Origin: Alphaproteobacteria bacterium
GTDB lineage: Bacteria > Pseudomonadota > Alphaproteobacteria > UBA2966
Assembly: GCA_030740435.1 (NCBI GenBank)
Contig: JASLXG010000031.1
Coordinates: 1 to 64,000, forward strand
Length of the DNA: 64,000 bases
Reading direction: 5' to 3'
Part shown: in pieces, positions 14,306 to 34,117 of the stretch
Position numbering within the stretch: the stretch's first letter is position 1
Layout: each line of letters opens with the position of its first letter
Position numbers and translations under genes: made by a program
The notes under the pieces: model-generated
Told to the model about the DNA's origin: nothing
What the model saw: the letters and a program-made list of their open reading frames with translations, nothing else
Database searches by the model: none

Positions 14306-15654
14306 TGGGCCACATCCTGCAACGCCAACTCGATGCCGAGCTGCCGGTGGCGGTGGCCGGCGATGGAGTCTACCTGATCGACGAGAGTGGCAAGCGCTAC
14401 CTCGACGCCTCGGCCGGGGCCGCGGTCTCGGCGCTGGGCCATTCCGACGCGCAAGTGCGCCGGGCCATCGTCGAGCAGGTCGAAAGCCTGGCCTTCGCCC
14501 ACACCTCGTTCTTCACCACCCGGGTGGCCGAGGAACTGGCCGAGCATTTGGCCCAAGCCGCGCCGACGGGGCTGGAGCAGGTGTTTTTCATCAGCGGCGG
14601 TTCCGAGGCCATCGAGGCGGCGCTCAAGCTCGCCCGCCAGTACTTCGTCGAACAGGGCCAGCCCCAGCGCCGCCACTTCATCGCCAGGCGCCAGAGCTAT
14701 CACGGCAATACGCTCGGCGCCCTGGCCGTCGGCGGCCACCCGGCGCGGCGTGCCATCTATGCGCCCTTGCTGATCGAAACCACCCACATCTCGCCTTGCT
14801 ACGCCTACCGTGGCCAGGACCCGGATGAAAGCGAGGAACAATACGGCCGGCGCCTGGCCGACGAGCTGGAGGCCGCCATCCAAAGCCTGGGGCCCGACAG
14901 CGTCACCGCCTTCGTGGCCGAGACGGTGGTCGGCTCGGCGCTTGGCGCGGTGCCGCCGGTGGCCGGCTATTTCCGTCGCATCCGCGAGGTCTGCGAGCGC
15001 TACGGCGTGCTGCTGATCCTCGACGAGGTGATGTGCGGCATGGGCCGCACGGGAACCCTCTTTGCCTGCGAGCAAGAGGGCGTGGTGCCCGACCTGGTGT
15101 GCGTCGCCAAGGGACTGGGGGCGGGCTACCAGCCGATCGGCGCGGTGATCGCCAGCCGGCACATATACGACGCCTTGCGCCAGGGCTCGGGCGCCCTGCA
15201 GCACGGCCACACCTACATCGGCCACCCCGTGGCCTGTGCCGCCGCCCTGGCCGTGCAACGCGCCATCGTCGAGCGCGATCTGCTGGCCAACGTGGTGGCC
15301 CAGGGCGAGCGTCTCGAGGCGGCGCTATACGAGCGTTTCGGCAACCACCCCCATGTCGGCGACATTCGCGGCCGCGGCCTCTTTCGGGCCATAGAGTTGG
15401 TCGCCGACCGCGAGACCAAGCGGCCCTTCGATGTGGCCGACAAACTGCACGCCCGCATCAAGGCCGAGGCCATGGCGGGTGGCCTGATCTGCTATCCGGC
15501 CGCCGGCTCGGCGACCGGCGAGGCCGGCGATCACGTGCTGCTGGCCCCGCCCTATATCATCCAGGCGGCCGAGATCGACGATATCGTCGAACGCCTGGGA
15601 GTTGCCGTCGACGCCTGCTTGGTCGACATCGGCGCTACAGGGAGGGCAGCCTGA
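14305..15654 (+). CDS. Class III pyridoxal-phosphate aminotransferase
   Basis: 449 aa. The layout is that of omega-amino-acid:pyruvate aminotransferases: [19 protein letters not shown] for phosphate binding, [24 protein letters not shown], and the PLP lysine in [20 protein letters not shown], followed by [17 protein letters not shown]. The amino donor is not known. Its operon partners (RpiR regulator, TAXI-type TRAP components, universal stress protein) suggest uptake and transamination of an organic amine or amino acid. It starts inside the rpiR stop (TGATG) and ends in TGATGA, which also starts the next small frame. Confidence 0.9.
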
Positions 15655-15815
15655 TGAAAATACCCCACATGTTTGGCCGCAGACCGACCGCCGCGACGGT
15701 CCTGGCCCACGACCACATCGGTTTCGCGGCGATCTCCAGCGGCCACAACGCGACAGCCGCAGAAAGCGAACGTTTCAACCCCGACCATCAGCAAATGGAG
15801 GACTGCACGTTATGA
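15654..15815 (+). CDS. Possible 53-residue small protein coupled to its neighbours
   Basis: The frame [18 protein letters not shown]... starts with an ATG that shares its A with the aminotransferase stop, and ends in TGA inside ATGA, whose ATG starts the TAXI binding protein. Both overlaps are those of translationally coupled genes. The product has no membrane segment and no recognised motif. The GGAGG that serves the next gene lies within it (near 15797). It may be a real small protein, a device for coupling, or chance. Confidence 0.35.
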
Positions 15816-17275
15816 AGAAATTGGCTCTCACAACCGGTGCCGTGGCGTTCGCCGCGGCGCTCGGTCTCGGCGCCCTGGCGTCCGGCCCCGTCGCCGCCCA
15901 GGGCAACTTCATCACCATCGGCACCGGCGGTGTCACCGGCGTCTACTATCCTACCGGCGGCGCCATCTGCCGCCTGGTCAACAAGAAACGCAAAGAGCAC
16001 GGCATCCGCTGCTCGGTCGAGAGCACCGGCGGCTCGGTCTACAACCTCAACACCATCCGGGCCGGCGAGCTCGACATGGGCGTGGCGCAGTCGGACTGGT
16101 AGTACCACGCCTACAACGGCACCAGCAGATTCAAGGCGAAGGGGCCGTTCAAGGGCCTGCGGGCGGTCTTTTCCGTGCATCCCGAGCCCTTCACCGTGGT
16201 GGCCCGGGCCGATGCCGGCATCAAGACCTTCAACGACCTCAAGGGCAAGCGGGTCAACATCGGCAATCCCGGATCCGGCCAACGCGGCACCATGGAAGTG
16301 GTGATGGCGGCCCTGGGCTGGACCAAAAAGTCCTTTGCCCTGGCTTCCGAGCTCAAGTCGGCGGAACAGTCGCAGGCGCTTTGCGACAACAAGATCGACG
16401 CCATGGTGTTCACCGTGGGTCATCCCAGCGGCTCGATCAAGGAGGCCACCACGACCTGTGACAGCGTCATCGTCGAGGTCTCGGGGCCGGCCATCGAAAA
16501 GCTGGTCAACGACAACGACTACTACCGCCACGCCGTGGTTCCGGGCGGCATGTATCGCGGCAACGCCAACGACACCAAGACCTTCGGCGTCGGCGCCACC
16601 TTCGTCAGCTCGACCAATGCCCCGGCGGCCATCCGCACGGCGATTTTGCCGTTCCTCTTCATCTTCAACACCGAACTTCTGATGATCGGCATCGAAAACG
16701 CTTTCCATCTGGTGCTGACTATCGTCGTGGCGGTGGGGGCCATGCTGACTTTCGCGGCGGCCACCCAGGGTTTTTTTCTGGTCAAGTGCCGGTTGTGGGA
16801 GATTGCCGCCCTGCTGCTGGTCGCCTTCACCCTGTTCCGGCCCGGCTTTTGGTGGGACATGGTCTATCCGGCGCTGGAATCGGCGCCGGCCAAGGGCATC
16901 TACAAGATCGTCGAGGCGGTGCCGCCGGGCGGCCACATTCGCATCCGGGTGACCGGCGAGAACCTCGACGGCGACGCCGTGGACAAGACCGTGATGCTGC
17001 AGATCGACGCCGGCGCCGACGGCGCCGCCCGCCTGGCCGGAGCCGGCCTCGAACTGCGCCAGGAGGAGGGCAAGATGATCGTCGACAACGTCGTCTTCGG
17101 TAGCTCCGCCGAGCGCCAGAAGATCGATTTCGATTGGCAGATCGCCAGCGTCGAGCGCAAGGCCGATCGTCCGCCCAGGCAGCTCATGTACCTGCCGGCG
17201 CTGCTGCTCTTTGGGGCGGTGTTCGTGCTGCAGCGGCGGCGGCGCCAGGGCGGCGATGCCGGCGCCGCGGCCTAA
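15812..17275 (+). pseudogene. TAXI-family TRAP binding protein fused by deletion to the C-terminus of its permease, with an in-frame amber codon
   Basis: Start ATG 15812 (GGAGGA upstream), signal peptide to VAAQ. The TAXI domain follows: [29 protein letters not shown], then TAG at 16100-16102 (codon 97) where family members have Gln (SDWQYHAYNG), so CAG to TAG is likely. The frame stays intact after it. Near 16625 the TAXI sequence stops (FVSSTNAPA) and continues as the last membrane segments of a DctM-like permease (ILPFLFIFNTELLMIGI...) plus a DUF3394-type tail (RIRVTGENLDGDAVDKTV). The rest of TAXI and most of the permease are missing. A deletion between two adjacent genes explains this. 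Uptake by this locus is probably lost. Confidence 0.8.
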
Positions 17276-17289
17276 CCGGAGGGGACGTC

Positions 17290-17718
17290 ATGTACAAGGA
17301 CATACTGCTGGCGCTCGACATCAACGACGAGGCGACCTGGCACAAGGCACTGCCGGTAGCCGACGAGCTGCGGCGCAACTTCGCGGCCAATCTGCATGTG
17401 CTCACCGTGGTGCCCGATTTCGGCATGAGCATCGTCGCCCAGCACTTCCCCGCCGACTTCGAGAAAAAGGCGCTGGCCGAAGCCAAGGCCAGGCTGGAAG
17501 CCCTGGTCGGCGAGAACCTGGACGACCTGGGCAACGTGCGGCTGGTGGTCGAGCAGGGTTCGGTCCACAAGGAGATCGTGGTGGCCGCCAAGCTGGTGGG
17601 GGCCGATCTCATCGTCATTTCGTCCTCCAAACCGGGCTTGCAGGACTACCTGCTGGGACCCAACGCCGCCCAAGTCGTGCGCCAGGCCGAAAGCTCGGTA
17701 TTGGTGGTTCGAGACTGA
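17290..17718 (+). CDS. Universal stress protein (UspA family)
   Basis: 142 aa from ATG 17290 with GGAGGGG upstream. A single Usp domain: MYKDILLALDIND at the N-terminus, a middle EQGSVHKEIVVAAKLVGADLIVI, and the C-terminal nucleotide-loop region SSKPGLQDYLLGPNAAQVV...SSVLVVRD. The usual Gly-Ser of the ATP loop is Gly-Pro here, so ATP binding is uncertain. Usp genes commonly accompany TRAP-TAXI transporters; it lies 14 nt after the broken TAXI/permease fusion. Confidence 0.88.
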   Translation: MYKDILLALDINDEATWHKALPVADELRRNFAANLHVLTVVPDFGMSIVAQHFPADFEKKALAEAKARLEALVGENLDDLGNVRLVVEQGSVHKEIVVAAKLVGADLIVISSSKPGLQDYLLGPNAAQVVRQAESSVLVVRD

Positions 17719-17791: not shown

Positions 17792-18178
17792 CTACTTGGT
17801 TGCCTTTTTGAGGTAGGCGATGACGTCTGCCCGCTGTTTGGTCTTTTTGAGGCCGGGGAAGGTCATCTTGCCCTTCTTGATCACGGCTTTGGGCTTTTTG
17901 ATGTATTTGTCCATGATGGCGTCGTCCCAGACGATGCCCGACGCCTTGATAGCCTTGGAAAACTTCTTGTAGCCGGCGGCGGTGCCCGCCTTGCGCCCGA
18001 AAACGCCGTGCAAATTGGGGCCGACCTTGTGCTTGCCGCCCTTTTTGACGGTGTGGCAGGCCTTGCACTTGTTGAACACCTTCTTGCCCTTGGCCGCGTC
18101 GCCGGCCGCCAGTGCCGAGGTGCTGGAAAGCGCAATAAGGCAGGCCGCGCCGATGCCAATCAGCTTGTTCGTGGTCAT
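17792..18178 (-). CDS. Class I cytochrome c (c2/c-550 type)
   Basis: 128 aa. Signal peptide ending ALAA-G, then a small lysine-rich cytochrome. The haem site is C38-K-A-C41-H42, and Met105 in [10 protein letters not shown] is the likely sixth ligand. The size (~104 aa mature) fits soluble periplasmic electron carriers of the c2 family. The strong positive charge is usual for carriers that dock to acidic oxidases or reductases. The gene is followed by a clear terminator. The cytochrome P460 gene upstream on the same strand makes a functional link possible. Confidence 0.92.
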
Positions 18179-18392: not shown

Positions 18393-19277
18393 CTACAGGC
18401 GGTGCTCCTCGGGCAGGAAGAAGAGATGGTCCTGGTCCTCCACCGAGGCGTGGCACTCGATGCAGAAAGCGACCGTGCCCGAATTCTTGCCGCCCGTGGT
18501 GCCGAAGACGCTGCCGTTGGGCAGGACCATGGAATAGCGCCAGTTGCCGCTCGGCTTGTTGAAGCCGGCCGCCATCTTTTCCATGGTAAAGAGCGGCCCG
18601 GCAACCACTCGGCCGCTGGCGTTGGCGACGAAACTGTCCTTGGCCAGCATGGCGCCGACCGGCAGCGGGCCGGCCTTTTCGTATTTGCCGTAACCTTGGG
18701 CCAGGGCGTTGCCGAAGTTGTTGACGTAGCGCCCGCCGTGGGTGTCCGAGACGTAGGGCCGCAGCGAAAAACGGCTCCAATCGGCATAATCGCCGACATA
18801 GCTCAGGCCCGACTTGGCGTAGGCCGCCCTGAGCGCCTGGCGGGCGCAATCGTAGGCCGCCACGGCCTCGGCCTGGGTCAGTTCGGGAACCTCGGCGGCG
18901 GCGCAGGGGTTGCAGGCCTGAGTGGCGCAGGGGTTCTTGGCAGCACACGGATTGCAGCCTTTGGCGGCGCAGGGGTTCTTGGCCGCCACCTTCATCAAAC
19001 GCGGTACCACGCAGGCGGCGCTTTTGGCGGCACAAGGATTACAGGGATTGCAAGCCTTGGCGGCACAGGGATTACAGAGATTACAGGGATTACAGGGATT
19101 CTTGGCCGCGCAGGGATTTTTCGCGGCGCAAGGGTTTTTTCCGGCGCAGGGGTTCTTCGCCGCGCAGGCCGCCCGCGACGCCATCGGCGCCACCACGGCC
19201 GTGGTTGCCACCGTACCGATACCCAGCATGATGGGGATGACCGTCGTCGTTAGCAGCCGGTTGTGAATGGATTTCAT
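18393..19277 (-). CDS. Cytochrome P460-family protein with an N-terminal Cys-rich NPC repeat domain
   Basis: 294 aa from ATG 19277. Residues 1-35 are a signal peptide. Residues 37-126 are a low-complexity domain of repeated (AAK)NPC and CNPC units with 18 cysteines. Residues ~133-294 are a cytochrome P460 domain: YADWSRFSLRPYVSDTHGGRYVN, VGAMLAKDSF, TMEKMAAGFN, WRYSMVLPNGSVFGTT, and the haem site C272-I-E-C-H276 near LFFLPEEHRL. P460 proteins are periplasmic c-type haem enzymes, some of which oxidise hydroxylamine. The NPC domain is not part of P460 and looks like a metal- or disulphide-rich module; its role is unknown. The divergent FGE-like gene starts 166 bp away. Confidence 0.85.
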   Translation of the reverse strand: MKSIHNRLLTTTVIPIMLGIGTVATTAVVAPMASRAACAAKNPCAGKNPCAAKNPCAAKNPCNPCNLCNPCAAKACNPCNPCAAKSAACVVPRLMKVAAKNPCAAKGCNPCAAKNPCATQACNPCAAAEVPELTQAEAVAAYDCARQALRAAYAKSGLSYVGDYADWSRFSLRPYVSDTHGGRYVNNFGNALAQGYGKYEKAGPLPVGAMLAKDSFVANASGRVVAGPLFTMEKMAAGFNKPSGNWRYSMVLPNGSVFGTTGGKNSGTVAFCIECHASVEDQDHLFFLPEEHRL

Positions 19278-19443: not shown

Positions 19444-20304
19444 ATGACGAGCGGGGTTTCACGCCGCGGCCTGGCGGCCGCCCTGGTGGCTGCCGCCATG
19501 GCGCTGGCTCCTGTCGGCAGGACGGCCCCGCTACCCGAGGTCATCGCCATCCCCGGCGGCCCCTTTATCATCGGCTCCGACCGGGCCGAGCGCGAGAGCG
19601 CCTACCGCCTGGACGAAGCCGCCTACGGCCATTCCATTACCCGCCGGCGCGGCTGGTACGAGGCCGAAGGCGAACGCCGGCTGGCCACCACCGCCGCCTT
19701 CACCATCACGCGCAACCTCATCACCAACGCCCAGTACGCCGATTTCATCGCCGCCACCGAACACGCCGCACCCGAGGTCGACGCCGGCACTTGGGCCTCC
19801 TACGGCCTTATCCATCCCTTCAGCCGCAGCCGCCGCCACGCCTGGCGCCAGCGCCGGCCGCCGCCGGGACGCGAGCGGCACCCGGTGGTTCTGGTCTCGC
19901 ACTTCGATGCCCTGGCCTATGCCGCCTGGCTGGGCCGCACCACCGGCCGCAACTGGCGCCTGCCCAGCGAGAAGCAATGGCTGAAGGCGGCCCGGGGCAG
20001 CGACGGCGCGCGCTTTCCCTGGGGCAACCATTTCGATCCCACGCGCCTCAATAGCGCCGACCGCGGCCCCTTCGACACCGTGGCGGTAGGCAGTTTTCTC
20101 CGCGGTGCCAGTCCCTTCGGCCTGCTCGATGGCGCCGGCCAGGTTTTCGAGTGGACGGCGACCGCCAGCGGTCCAAAGAAATTCATCGTCAAGGGCGGCT
20201 CGTGGGACGACAAGGGCTGCGGCGTTTGCCGGCCGGCGGCGCGCCACGCCCGCCCCGCCGGCCTCAAACACATCCTCATCGGATTTCGTTTGGTGCGGGA
20301 ATAG
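19444..20304 (+). CDS. Formylglycine-generating-enzyme-like (SUMF1/FGE-sulfatase domain) exported protein
   Basis: 286 aa from ATG 19444, with GGGGAG upstream. A twin-arginine-like start (SRRGL) and hydrophobic stretch suggest export. The FGE-sulfatase fold is shown by IPGGPFIIGSD, ITRNLITNAQYADFI, HFDALAYAAWLGRTTGRNWRLPSEKQW, ARFPWGNHFD and FIVKGGSWDD...RPAARHARP...IGFRLV. The only two cysteines are C259 and C262 (GCGVC), close to where true FGEs carry their copper-binding pair but spaced CxxC. It may modify a protein, bind metal, or be a non-enzymatic relative. It is divergent from the P460 gene. Confidence 0.8.
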   Translation: MTSGVSRRGLAAALVAAAMALAPVGRTAPLPEVIAIPGGPFIIGSDRAERESAYRLDEAAYGHSITRRRGWYEAEGERRLATTAAFTITRNLITNAQYADFIAATEHAAPEVDAGTWASYGLIHPFSRSRRHAWRQRRPPPGRERHPVVLVSHFDALAYAAWLGRTTGRNWRLPSEKQWLKAARGSDGARFPWGNHFDPTRLNSADRGPFDTVAVGSFLRGASPFGLLDGAGQVFEWTATASGPKKFIVKGGSWDDKGCGVCRPAARHARPAGLKHILIGFRLVRE

Positions 20305-29267: not shown

Positions 29268-30058
29268 GGCCGGGATCCGGGGGCGCGCTCTACGACCGCA
29301 TCGGCGTCGGCTACGACGGCACGCGCCGGGCCGATCCGGGTTTGGCAGGCGAGTTGCACGATCATCTTGGGCCGGCCCCCGGCGCCGTCCTCGACCTCGC
29401 CTGCGGCACCGGCAACTACACCTCCGCCCTGGCCGCCCGGGGCCGCCGCATGATCGGCCTCGACCGCTCGCCGCAAATGCTGGCGCAGGCCCGGCTCAAG
29501 GGGGCCGAGCCCCGGGTGCTGGCCGACGCCGCCCGGCTGCCCTTTGCCGAGGCCGCTTTCAGCGGCGCCATCTGCGTTCACGCCGTGCACCACTTCGCCG
29601 ATCTGAGGGCGGCCCTGGCCGAGGTCGGCCGGGTGCTGGCCCCCGCCGCCCGGCTGGTGATCTTCACCGGCTTTCCCGAACAGGTGCGCAGTTATTGGCT
29701 GAACGCCTATTTCCCCGTCGCCCTCGAACGTGCCGCCCTGCTGGTGCCGTTAGAGACCGAGATCGCCCAGGCCCTGGCGGCGGCCGGATTCGGGCCGCCC
29801 AGGGTGCTGCCCTGGCAGGTCAAGCCCGATCTCGTCGATCTCTTCATGTATGCCGGCAAGCACCGGCCCGAGCTCTATTTCGACACCGCCGTGCGCCGTG
29901 GCATCTCGACCTTCGCCAATCTGGCCGACGCGGCCGAGGTCGAAGACGGCCTGGCGCGATTGCGCGCCGACCTCGACAACGGGCGTTTCGAGACCATCGC
30001 GGCCGGCTATGGCAGTACCGTGGGCGACTACAGTTTCATGATTGCCGGCAAGGCCTAA
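29243..30058 (+). CDS. Class I SAM-dependent methyltransferase
   Basis: About 265-271 aa. SAM-binding motif VLDLACGTGNYTSAL, acidic residue in MIGLDRSPQML, ADAARLPFAEAAFS and ICVHAVHHFADLRAALAEVGRVLAP, the Methyltransf_11 / UbiE-like pattern. The target is not evident. The start is uncertain: no ATG lies near the N-terminus, and the only usual candidate is GTG 29243 inside the lipoprotein gene. The stop overlaps the stop of the convergent ferredoxin reductase. Confidence 0.75.
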   Translation: MDPDDGQIRPGSGGALYDRIGVGYDGTRRADPGLAGELHDHLGPAPGAVLDLACGTGNYTSALAARGRRMIGLDRSPQMLAQARLKGAEPRVLADAARLPFAEAAFSGAICVHAVHHFADLRAALAEVGRVLAPAARLVIFTGFPEQVRSYWLNAYFPVALERAALLVPLETEIAQALAAAGFGPPRVLPWQVKPDLVDLFMYAGKHRPELYFDTAVRRGISTFANLADAAEVEDGLARLRADLDNGRFETIAAGYGSTVGDYSFMIAGKA

Positions 30059-31017
30059 AGATCGAGCGTAAGCTCCGGGGTTTTGGCCCGCGAAATGCAG
30101 ATGCACATCTGGCCTTCGGCCTGTTCGTCGGCGCTCAGCGTGTGGTCGCGGTGGTCGGGCTCGCCTTTCAGCACCTTGGTGGCGCAGAGGCCGCAGATGC
30201 CCATCTTGCAGTCGAAGTCGGCCTCGACCTTGGCCTCGAGCAGCACCTCGAGGATGCTCTCGCCCGCTGGCACCGTGTAGCTGATGCCGGACTTGGCCAG
30301 GGTGACTTCGATGGCTACATCTTCGGGCTTGGATTGGCCGGCCTTGAAGAGCTCGTAATGGACTGCGGCCTCGGGCCAGCCCCATTCGTGGGCCTTCTCG
30401 CGTACCGCCCCGATCAGGCCGGCGGGGCCGCAGACGTAAAGCTGGCAGCCCTCGGGACGCTTTTCCAGCAGGCCTTCGAGATCGATGCCCTGGGCCGGGT
30501 CGCCGCCGTCGAAGGCAAGGTGCGCGCGAGCTCCGAGCAGCGCCTCGATGTCGGCGCGAAAGGCCATGTCGGCCGGCGAGCGGGTGACGTAGTGGAGCTC
30601 GAATTCTCGCTCCTGCAGCGCCAATACGCGGGCCATGCTGAGGATCGGCGTGATGCCGATGCCGCCGGCGATAAGCAAGCTGGGCCCGCCGCTTTCGCTC
30701 AGCGGAAAATGGTTCTTGGGCTCCGAGACCGCGAGCTCATCGCCCTCGCGGATGCCCTCGTGCATGAAGGCCGAGCCGCCGGTGCTGTTCGCATCCCTCA
30801 GGATACCCAGCCGATAACGCCCCGCCTCGGCCGGCGAATTGACCAGCGAATAGGAGCGTTTGTCACGGCTGCCGTCGGGCAGGGTGACGGCTACGTCGAC
30901 GTGGGCCCCGGCCGTGAACGGGGGCAGCGTTGCGCCGTCCGCCGCCACCAGGTCGAAAACCTTGATGGCCGGGGTCGCCTCGACGATCTTCTCGACCTTC
31001 AATGTTAGATCGTTCAC
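30055..31017 (-). CDS. Ferredoxin reductase with C-terminal plant-type [2Fe-2S] domain; likely electron donor to BoxB
   Basis: 320 aa. Flavin-binding RSYSL at 54-58, NAD(P)-binding AGGIGITPILSMAR (~117-130) and CGPAG (196-200), then a plant-type ferredoxin domain at the C-terminus with Cys270, Cys275, Cys278 and Cys305 or 307. This order (reductase then ferredoxin) is that of phthalate dioxygenase reductase and of VanB, as well as PaaE. Classical BoxA instead has two [4Fe-4S] clusters. Being 31 nt downstream of boxB in the same operon, it probably supplies electrons to BoxB; this is inferred from position. Confidence 0.85.
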   Translation of the reverse strand: MNDLTLKVEKIVEATPAIKVFDLVAADGATLPPFTAGAHVDVAVTLPDGSRDKRSYSLVNSPAEAGRYRLGILRDANSTGGSAFMHEGIREGDELAVSEPKNHFPLSESGGPSLLIAGGIGITPILSMARVLALQEREFELHYVTRSPADMAFRADIEALLGARAHLAFDGGDPAQGIDLEGLLEKRPEGCQLYVCGPAGLIGAVREKAHEWGWPEAAVHYELFKAGQSKPEDVAIEVTLAKSGISYTVPAGESILEVLLEAKVEADFDCKMGICGLCATKVLKGEPDHRDHTLSADEQAEGQMCICISRAKTPELTLDL

Positions 31018-31048
31018 GGGTTTCTCTCCGCCGCGACCGTCTTGGCGG

Positions 31049-32464
<1,416 letters not shown>

Positions 32465-32467
32465 GGT

Positions 32468-34117
32468 TCAGATCCTTCCCTTGTCGAATTTGGCGCGATC
32501 GCCGCTGCCGTAGCGTTGCAGGGCACCCTCGGCACCCACCGCGTTGGGGCGCTGGAAGATCCAGTTCTGCCAGGCCGTGAGGCGGGCGAATATCTTGGTT
32601 TCCATGGTTTCCGGACCGCCAAAGCGCAGATTGGCTTCCAGGCCCACCAGGGCGTCGGGCGAGAAGCTGGAGCGTTCCTCCAAGGCCAGGCGAACCTCGT
32701 CTTCCCAGTCGATGTCGTCGGGGATGAAAGTGACGAGCCCGAGCTGGTCGGCCTCCTCGGCCTCCAGGTCGCGGCCGATGGCGCTCCGTAGCGTCTCGAG
32801 GTGCTGCGGATCATCGAGGAAACGCGCCTCCAGGCGGCTCAAGCCGTGTCCCATGGGGTAGCTTTCGAAGTTGAGCTCGGTCAGCCCGAGCGCCGCCGGC
32901 GGCCGGTTGTCGCCCTCCACCCGGCCTTCCAGCATGTAACTGCGGTCGGCCGCCAGGACGAGTTCCAGGAGTGTGCCGACGAAGCAGCTGCCGGGCTCGA
33001 TCAGCGCGATCAGCGAGCGCGAGCTGAGATCGAGGCGTTTCAATGTGCGTTTGAGGTAAAGCGTCACCTCGCGCACGAACCAGTTGTCGGCCTGGGCCGC
33101 CAGGGCGGTGTCGGCCGCCGCCACGAGTTCAGCCTGGCCTTCCGTGCGCAGCACCCAGGTGCCGATCTCGGGCTCGTTGAAGCGCAGGTGCAGCATGGCA
33201 TCGTCGAGTTCGCGGGCCAGCGCCAGCGGCCAGAAACCGGCGCCCTGGGCGAGCATGGCGGCGGCCTCGGTGGGTGACGCCTGTTCGGGCCCACGGACCA
33301 CGATGGTGGCCATGCCGGCGGCCCGGTCGATGGCCACGGCAACGGTCGAATATTCCAAACGGTCGCCGTCGATACGCCGCTCCAGCGGCTTCAGCTCAAC
33401 CCCGGCGGCCTCGGCCGGGCGGTCGCTGCGGGCCGCAAGTTCGGCTCCCAGTTCCGCCACCCGTGCGGCCATCCGCGAGGTCGGCACGACCTCGTCGACC
33501 AGCCGCCAGTCGACGGCACGGGCGCCCTTCAGACCCTCCTCGACGGTGCAGAAGAAATCCGCCCGGTCGCGCCGCACCCGGCGCTTGTCGACCAGCCGGG
33601 TCAGGCCGCCGGTGCCCGGCAGCACCGCCAGCAGAGGCACTTCCGGTAGCGCCACGTTGGTATTGCCGTCGTCGGCCATGATGATGTAGTCGGTGGCCAA
33701 GGCGAGCTCGTAGCCGCCGCCGGCACAAGGGCCGTTGATGGCGGTAAGGTATGTCTGGCCCGAATTTTCCGTAGCGTCCTCGATACTCAGCCGGGTCTCG
33801 TTGGTGAACTTGCAGAAGTTGACCTTATGGCCGTGGCTCGAGCTCGCCAGCATGCGGATGTTGGCACCGGCCGAAAACACCCGCTCCTTGCCCGAGGTGA
33901 TGACCACGGCGCCCACTTCGGGGTGCTCGAAGCGCAGGCGCTGAACGGCGTCGTAGAGCTCGATGTCGACGCCCAAGTCGTAGGAATTGAGTTTTAGCTC
34001 ATAGCCCGGCGCCAGGCCGCCCGCTTCGTCCACGTCCCAGGCCAGGGTGGCGACGGGGCCTTCGACGCTAAGCCGCCAGTGGCGGTAGCGGCTGGGCTCG
34101 GTGCGGAAGTCGATCAT
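32468..34117 (-). CDS. boxC: Benzoyl-CoA-dihydrodiol lyase (2,3-epoxybenzoyl-CoA dihydrolase) BoxC
   Basis: 549 aa, the usual BoxC length, made of two crotonase-type regions. The N-terminal one contains VFSAGANIRMLA and INGPCAGGGYELALATDYIIMADD, which form the oxyanion site; the second includes LIEPGSCFVGTLLELVLAADRSYML. BoxC opens the epoxide ring hydrolytically with loss of formate. First gene of boxC-boxB-reductase on the minus strand. boxD and benzoate-CoA ligase genes are not recognisable next to it. Confidence 0.92.
   Translation of the reverse strand: MIDFRTEPSRYRHWRLSVEGPVATLAWDVDEAGGLAPGYELKLNSYDLGVDIELYDAVQRLRFEHPEVGAVVITSGKERVFSAGANIRMLASSSHGHKVNFCKFTNETRLSIEDATENSGQTYLTAINGPCAGGGYELALATDYIIMADDGNTNVALPEVPLLAVLPGTGGLTRLVDKRRVRRDRADFFCTVEEGLKGARAVDWRLVDEVVPTSRMAARVAELGAELAARSDRPAEAAGVELKPLERRIDGDRLEYSTVAVAIDRAAGMATIVVRGPEQASPTEAAAMLAQGAGFWPLALARELDDAMLHLRFNEPEIGTWVLRTEGQAELVAAADTALAAQADNWFVREVTLYLKRTLKRLDLSSRSLIALIEPGSCFVGTLLELVLAADRSYMLEGRVEGDNRPPAALGLTELNFESYPMGHGLSRLEARFLDDPQHLETLRSAIGRDLEAEEADQLGLVTFIPDDIDWEDEVRLALEERSSFSPDALVGLEANLRFGGPETMETKIFARLTAWQNWIFQRPNAVGAEGALQRYGSGDRAKFDKGRI

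Follow-up and report, generated by a model that had tools for sequence, protein, structure and literature searches.

The window that we analysed is a 64,000-nucleotide stretch of the Alphaproteobacteria bacterium contig JASLXG010000031.1, in which the minus-strand gene at 18393..19277 encodes an exported 294-residue protein (export was read by eye from the translation). Residues 1-36 (19170..19277) form an N-terminal export signal region, seen as a hydrophobic stretch without a visible lipobox; an export signal and multiple cysteines were likewise recognised by eye in the sequences of the orthologues. The translation has 21 cysteines, 18 of them within residues 37-126, which comprise 12 NPC, one NLC and 8 AAK triplets. 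The original prediction, an 18-cysteine NPC array at residues 37-126 joined to a cytochrome P460 domain, was thus borne out by the translation and by Pfam; the cysteine content of the array stood, but not its continuity as a single array. There are instead two blocks of Cys triplets, residues 37-85 (19023..19169) and residues 101-126 (18900..18977), with the segment SAACVVPRLMKVAAK (residues 86-100; 18978..19022, minus strand as for all parts of this gene) between them, and this segment carries a C-x-[VI]-P-R-L motif conserved in the alignment. Cysteines of the array are mostly three or six residues apart and alternate with lysines (successive spacings in the protein are 6,6,6,6,3,3,3,5,3,3,7,14,5,3,6,5,3). 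In the AlphaFold2 model the first array block had pLDDT <50, the segment at 86-100 was a helix with pLDDT ~90, and the P460 part was largely >90.

The remainder of the protein (residues 127-294; 18396..18899) is a cytochrome P460 domain. Residues 186-286 matched Pfam Cytochrome_P460 (PF16694) with 32.5 bits (cut-off 27), and a Foldseek search of the PDB with the domain model placed McP460 (6hiu) first (E 1.5e-4, probability 1.00), the further leading matches being the P460 and c'-beta structures 9hrk, 7ead, 7s5o and 2je2. A haem c site, CIECH, lies at residues 272-276 (18450..18464), and its CxxCH is invariant across the aligned fusions. Alignment of the fusions with PDB chains placed Lys213 (18639..18641) at the haem cross-link position: all 17 fusions have it, and it lies opposite the cross-linking Lys (VKE) of Nitrosomonas europaea P460 (2je2/8gar), where the c'-beta chains have Met or Phe; the assignment of Lys to P460 and of Phe or Met to c'-beta proteins at this position follows PMC11928373. 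Since this Lys is invariant where c'-beta has Met or Phe, the array-bearing domain resembles P460 rather than c'-beta proteins in its sequence. E233 is, in 15 of the 17 fusions, a candidate for the distal carboxylate that P460 enzymes need to oxidise NH2OH; it is Arg in the other two, and alignments to different PDB chains disagree at this residue. The fold, the CxxCH site and the cross-link-position Lys are thus common to the fusion and to the cytochromes P460 of N. europaea (2je2) and M. capsulatus (6hiu), whereas the N-terminal Cys array and the C-x-[VI]-P-R-L segment are features of the fusion itself. The words "fusion" and "copper" are absent from a 2025 review of P460 and c'-beta proteins, and in the literature that we searched there was no mention of "NPCAAKNPC" and nothing relevant on a repeat with P460; the review and the text search support the earlier suggestion that such a combination lies outside the P460 family as described. 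The same genome has a second P460 gene, which has no array.

Two further genes named by the original prediction were found where it had placed them. The adjacent gene on the same strand (17792..18178) encodes a small c550-like cytochrome c (PF00034) that occupies the same place in five related loci (L033, L034, L035, L038 and L041), and the divergent gene at 19444..20304 (plus strand) encodes an exported FGE-like protein (PF03781, E 1.5e-39) with only two cysteines, which form a single CxxC. The most informative partner, a DUF6969 gene (PF22308; 24946..25644, plus strand), had been missed; it is separated from the fusion gene by a TRAP transporter, on the far side of which it lies. These genes belong to a conserved block with the order TAXI/TRAP transporter, UspA, cytochrome c, NPC-P460, FGE-like protein, DUF6969, the universal-stress-type protein (UspA) being encoded at 17290..17718 (plus strand), and relatives at the family and class level keep this block, though locally rearranged. 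At 15602-17275 of the window the TAXI solute-binding and large TRAP membrane genes look truncated and joined relative to those of the congener (L035 5420-6415 and 2912-5338), which may reflect a deletion or an assembly collapse. Elsewhere in the window, ORFs at 30055-34117 resemble by eye BoxA/BoxB/BoxC of aerobic benzoyl-CoA degradation.

The FGE-like protein shares with the formylglycine-generating enzyme superfamily its domain and a sequence relationship to solved members. Its motif GGSWDDxGCG[VI]CR is common to the FGE-like relatives near DUF6969 genes, and the CxxC is present in the close homologues except one (L131), which has no such pair. True formylglycine-generating enzymes have a C-x4-C active-site copper pair near GGSW, whereas this clade has CxxC there; because of this difference the chemistry of the FGE-like protein may not be the same, and a function as a true formylglycine generator is unsupported. 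The exported FGE-like CxxC protein is the alphaproteobacterial partner of the array.

Matches to the fusion protein were present in 11 of 61 genomes near that of the window, and relatives at the level of genus, family and class had NPC-P460 fusions with 16 to 30 NPC-type units. Because the array is conserved in other genera and families, its origin by chance is excluded. Between the window and its congener we counted 39 synonymous and 10 non-synonymous codon changes in the array, numbers that are indicative only, the repeat alignment being partly arbitrary, and 43 synonymous and 15 non-synonymous changes in the P460 part. The letters around the cysteines can be replaced altogether: a class relative (genome G021, locus L045) shares the P460 domain and the VPRL segment but spells its array GACGACGAKK, and Cys arrays beside DUF6969 at three further loci (L178-L180) are spelled KPCAAK, CCAAEG and CAAC. 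The spacing of the cysteines is conserved: where the retrieved loci contain NPC triplets, neighbouring cysteines are mainly 6 (510), 3 (337) or 5 (88) residues apart. Simple-repeat expansion was ruled out by the codon comparison together with the retention of cysteines while letters change. This had also been the proposed ground for refutation (a simple-sequence expansion unconserved in orthologues); the array is kept in the orthologues and the prediction survived.

Searching named genomes for NPCAAKNPC gave at least 80 loci which, among the matches listed, came from alpha-, beta- and gammaproteobacteria, Rokubacteria, Nitrospinota and others; a few of them are likely chance matches. The products among these listed loci fell into three groups. 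P460 sequence was present in 19 of the 80, the array being N-terminal to P460 in alphaproteobacteria; one P460 had an additional NPC block inside the domain (L122) and another had arrays at both ends (L124). In 28 of the 80 the array was fused to a SoxA/TsdA-type cytochrome c (PF21342), usually on both sides, in beta- and gammaproteobacteria. The third group consisted of free exported peptides, and the window's own genome encodes one on another contig (C21), 75 residues long with 10 Cys, in which we found no Pfam family, bufferin families included, and which has no DUF6969 gene adjacent to it. The array is a mobile module that is not specific to P460. We also observed that the free-peptide gene (G000:C21, L031 8259-11161) is flanked by genes for a TVP38-type membrane protein, a mercuric-reductase-like flavoprotein and a histidine kinase, a gene order kept in the congener (L032), and that flavoprotein/TVP38-like neighbours occur in 9 of the 80 NPC loci listed. 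DUF3179 genes were often near NPC cytochromes (10 of the 80 loci listed, including L088, L062, L063, L066 and L125). A genome that lacks DUF6969 has a long NPCAAPNPCAAP array (L189, G107:C65), possibly part of an unrelated NPC protein.

DUF6969 was the most frequent neighbour of the array, being present, among the matches listed, in 35 of the 80 NPC loci; the subset with a cytochrome c fusion had it at 18 of 28. Of 399 sampled genomes, 20 had DUF6969, 14 of these 20 had the NPC pattern, and the pattern was found in 53 genomes overall (Fisher p 2e-9 with kinship ignored, the 14 genomes spanning about ten families); within the class, 90 of 385 sampled genomes had DUF6969. For a neighbour test we took DUF6969 loci from 40 genomes chosen regardless of NPC and looked for an exported Cys-repeat ORF within 4 kb, and did so too in 20 control stretches, almost all of them from the same contigs at a distance of 30 kb. 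Such an ORF was found at 18 of 40 loci under a strict definition, or 23 of 40 under a relaxed one (repeat only), versus 0 of 20 controls; some 17-22 of the 40 loci had no Cys-repeat within 4 kb. Several of the Cys arrays near DUF6969 were not of NPC type (GGSHAGDC as well as the KPCAAK, CCAAEG and CAAC spellings), and there are genomes with NPC arrays that have no DUF6969 (e.g., G107 and G322).

The DUF6969 protein of the window has no visible export signal and, on its sequence, is probably cytoplasmic. H70, H72, H79, H81 and H113 are invariant across 129 distinct sequences, and H52 and D60 are conserved at 99% and 98%. Its structure model had a mean pLDDT of 92.6, and searches for a known fold yielded nothing significant in the PDB (best sequence match E 0.4, best fold match E 0.5); literature searches with "DUF6969" gave no mention and nothing relevant. 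Judged from sequence and model, DUF6969 may fairly be taken as a metal-binding protein of unseen fold, and potentially a new partner family, while calling it an enzyme would be a guess. At one locus (L046 9864-10358; G048:C10, about 169911-170297) a broken-looking DUF6969 match in two pieces lies by a P460 fragment match, perhaps a degraded copy or a frameshift.

Among the closest described counterparts of the array are the bufferins and the Buf_EGKCG/oxazolin precursors, MNIO-modified copper-binding RiPPs that, like the array, are exported and Cys-rich and often have tandem repeats (PMC12452194). The same MNIO survey reported unexplained Cys-rich precursors and chimaeras of the architecture Buf1|Cytochrom_C|FGE-sulfatase, i.e., bufferins with Cytochrom_C and FGE-sulfatase domains (PMC12452194), and a few array loci contain an MNIO operon. 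At one (L184), genes for an MNIO (382 bits with the BufB model, cut-off 310), DUF2063, DoxX, an exported GCGAKCGAK peptide and DUF6969 lie in a row; in Gallionella (L086) a DUF2282 bufferin operon adjoins an NPC cytochrome, followed by thioredoxin and DsbD_TM; and at a third (L175) an NPC cytochrome and DUF6969 lie about 5 kb from a DoxX-DUF2063-MNIO cluster. At the locus of the window the differences are plain: neither DUF2282 nor any Buf Pfam family was found in the P460 fusion, HMM and tblastn searches found no MNIO (PF05114) in the window's genome (G000) or in its relatives G001, G002 and G004, and the usual companion of the array is DUF6969. An MNIO is thereby ruled out as the modifying enzyme here, and the array, which has neither the precursor signature nor an MNIO beside it, is not a bufferin by this definition. 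It may, by analogy, work like one.

We consider it somewhat probable (about 0.55) that the Cys array is a bufferin-like periplasmic thiolate buffer for a metal, most likely Cu(I), tethered to haem proteins. Several lines of evidence favour a metal buffer: the array is conserved with variable copy number and synonymous-biased codon change; cysteines are kept while the array letters change; haem proteins of two unrelated kinds, P460 and SoxA/TsdA cytochrome c, carry the array; and it is linked to DUF6969 and to bufferin operons, with published bufferin chimaeras as precedent. Against it count the lack of MNIO in the genomes of the window and of three relatives, the free NPC peptide without an adjacent DUF6969 gene, the DUF6969 loci without a Cys-repeat, the NPC genomes without DUF6969, and the fact that we recognised no known copper exporter or regulator next to the locus. 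From this context we infer that binding of copper or another metal is the best of the roles originally offered for the cysteines, which had included a disulphide rod and an anchor. In such a mechanism the exported thiolate array would bind a soft metal, probably Cu(I), close to a haem protein, and its tethering to a P460-family haem c enzyme would buffer the metal next to that protein; the same module would be deployed both free, in exported peptides, and flanking SoxA/TsdA-type cytochromes. DUF6969 rather than an MNIO maturase would be the regular companion, assisting before export, with the exported FGE-like CxxC protein as an addition in alphaproteobacteria. A tentative and rather doubtful extension is that DUF6969 represents a novel metalloenzyme of the cytoplasm, acting before export to modify Cys-repeat proteins, the P460 fusion included, or to load them with metal, as a counterpart of MNIO with an unrelated fold.

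The main rival, though unlikely, is a structural role in which inter- or intramolecular disulphides shape the array into a rod, a mesh or an anchor and so keep the haem protein in place in the envelope. The periplasm is oxidising, some arrays have thioredoxin and DsbD-type genes nearby, the first block is disordered in the model, and the 6-NPC repeat protein CdeC of Clostridioides difficile undergoes redox-dependent self-assembly (PMC7677010). However, CdeC as described is a protein of the spore exosporium that has no haem domain, and its likeness to the array is limited to the tandem Asn-Pro-Cys triplet; furthermore, copy number varies freely among close relatives, and the recurrence of free peptides of ~75 residues by MNIO or DUF6969 genes is something for which structural disulphide proteins have no obvious need. 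It is improbable that the cysteines instead serve in thiol redox or reactive-nitrogen chemistry, scavenging NO, persulphide or peroxide or protecting the haem cross-link during P460 turnover: one paper (PMC5872139) describes P460 chemistry as limited by NO, and arrays are attached to haem protein families that handle N and S compounds, but the free peptides and SoxA/TsdA fusions offer no one common substrate and no nitrosative-stress genes were recognised as conserved neighbours. A neutral low-complexity spacer that merely distances the haem domain from the membrane, which the range of 16 to 30 units and the arrayless paralogue might suggest, is very improbable and already disfavoured by the retained cysteines in replaced letters, the synonymous bias and the spread over many families with recurrent partners.

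Returning to the metal-buffer reading, the recurrence of Cys arrays with DUF6969 suggests an unrecognised metal- or thiol-handling system in the style of the bufferins. If this is true, the bufferin idea would be widened from small peptides to haem enzymes, DUF6969, whose modelled fold has no PDB counterpart, would gain a function, and metal or thiol handling would be linked to P460 and SoxA/TsdA-type cytochromes, proteins known from nitrogen and sulphur metabolism.
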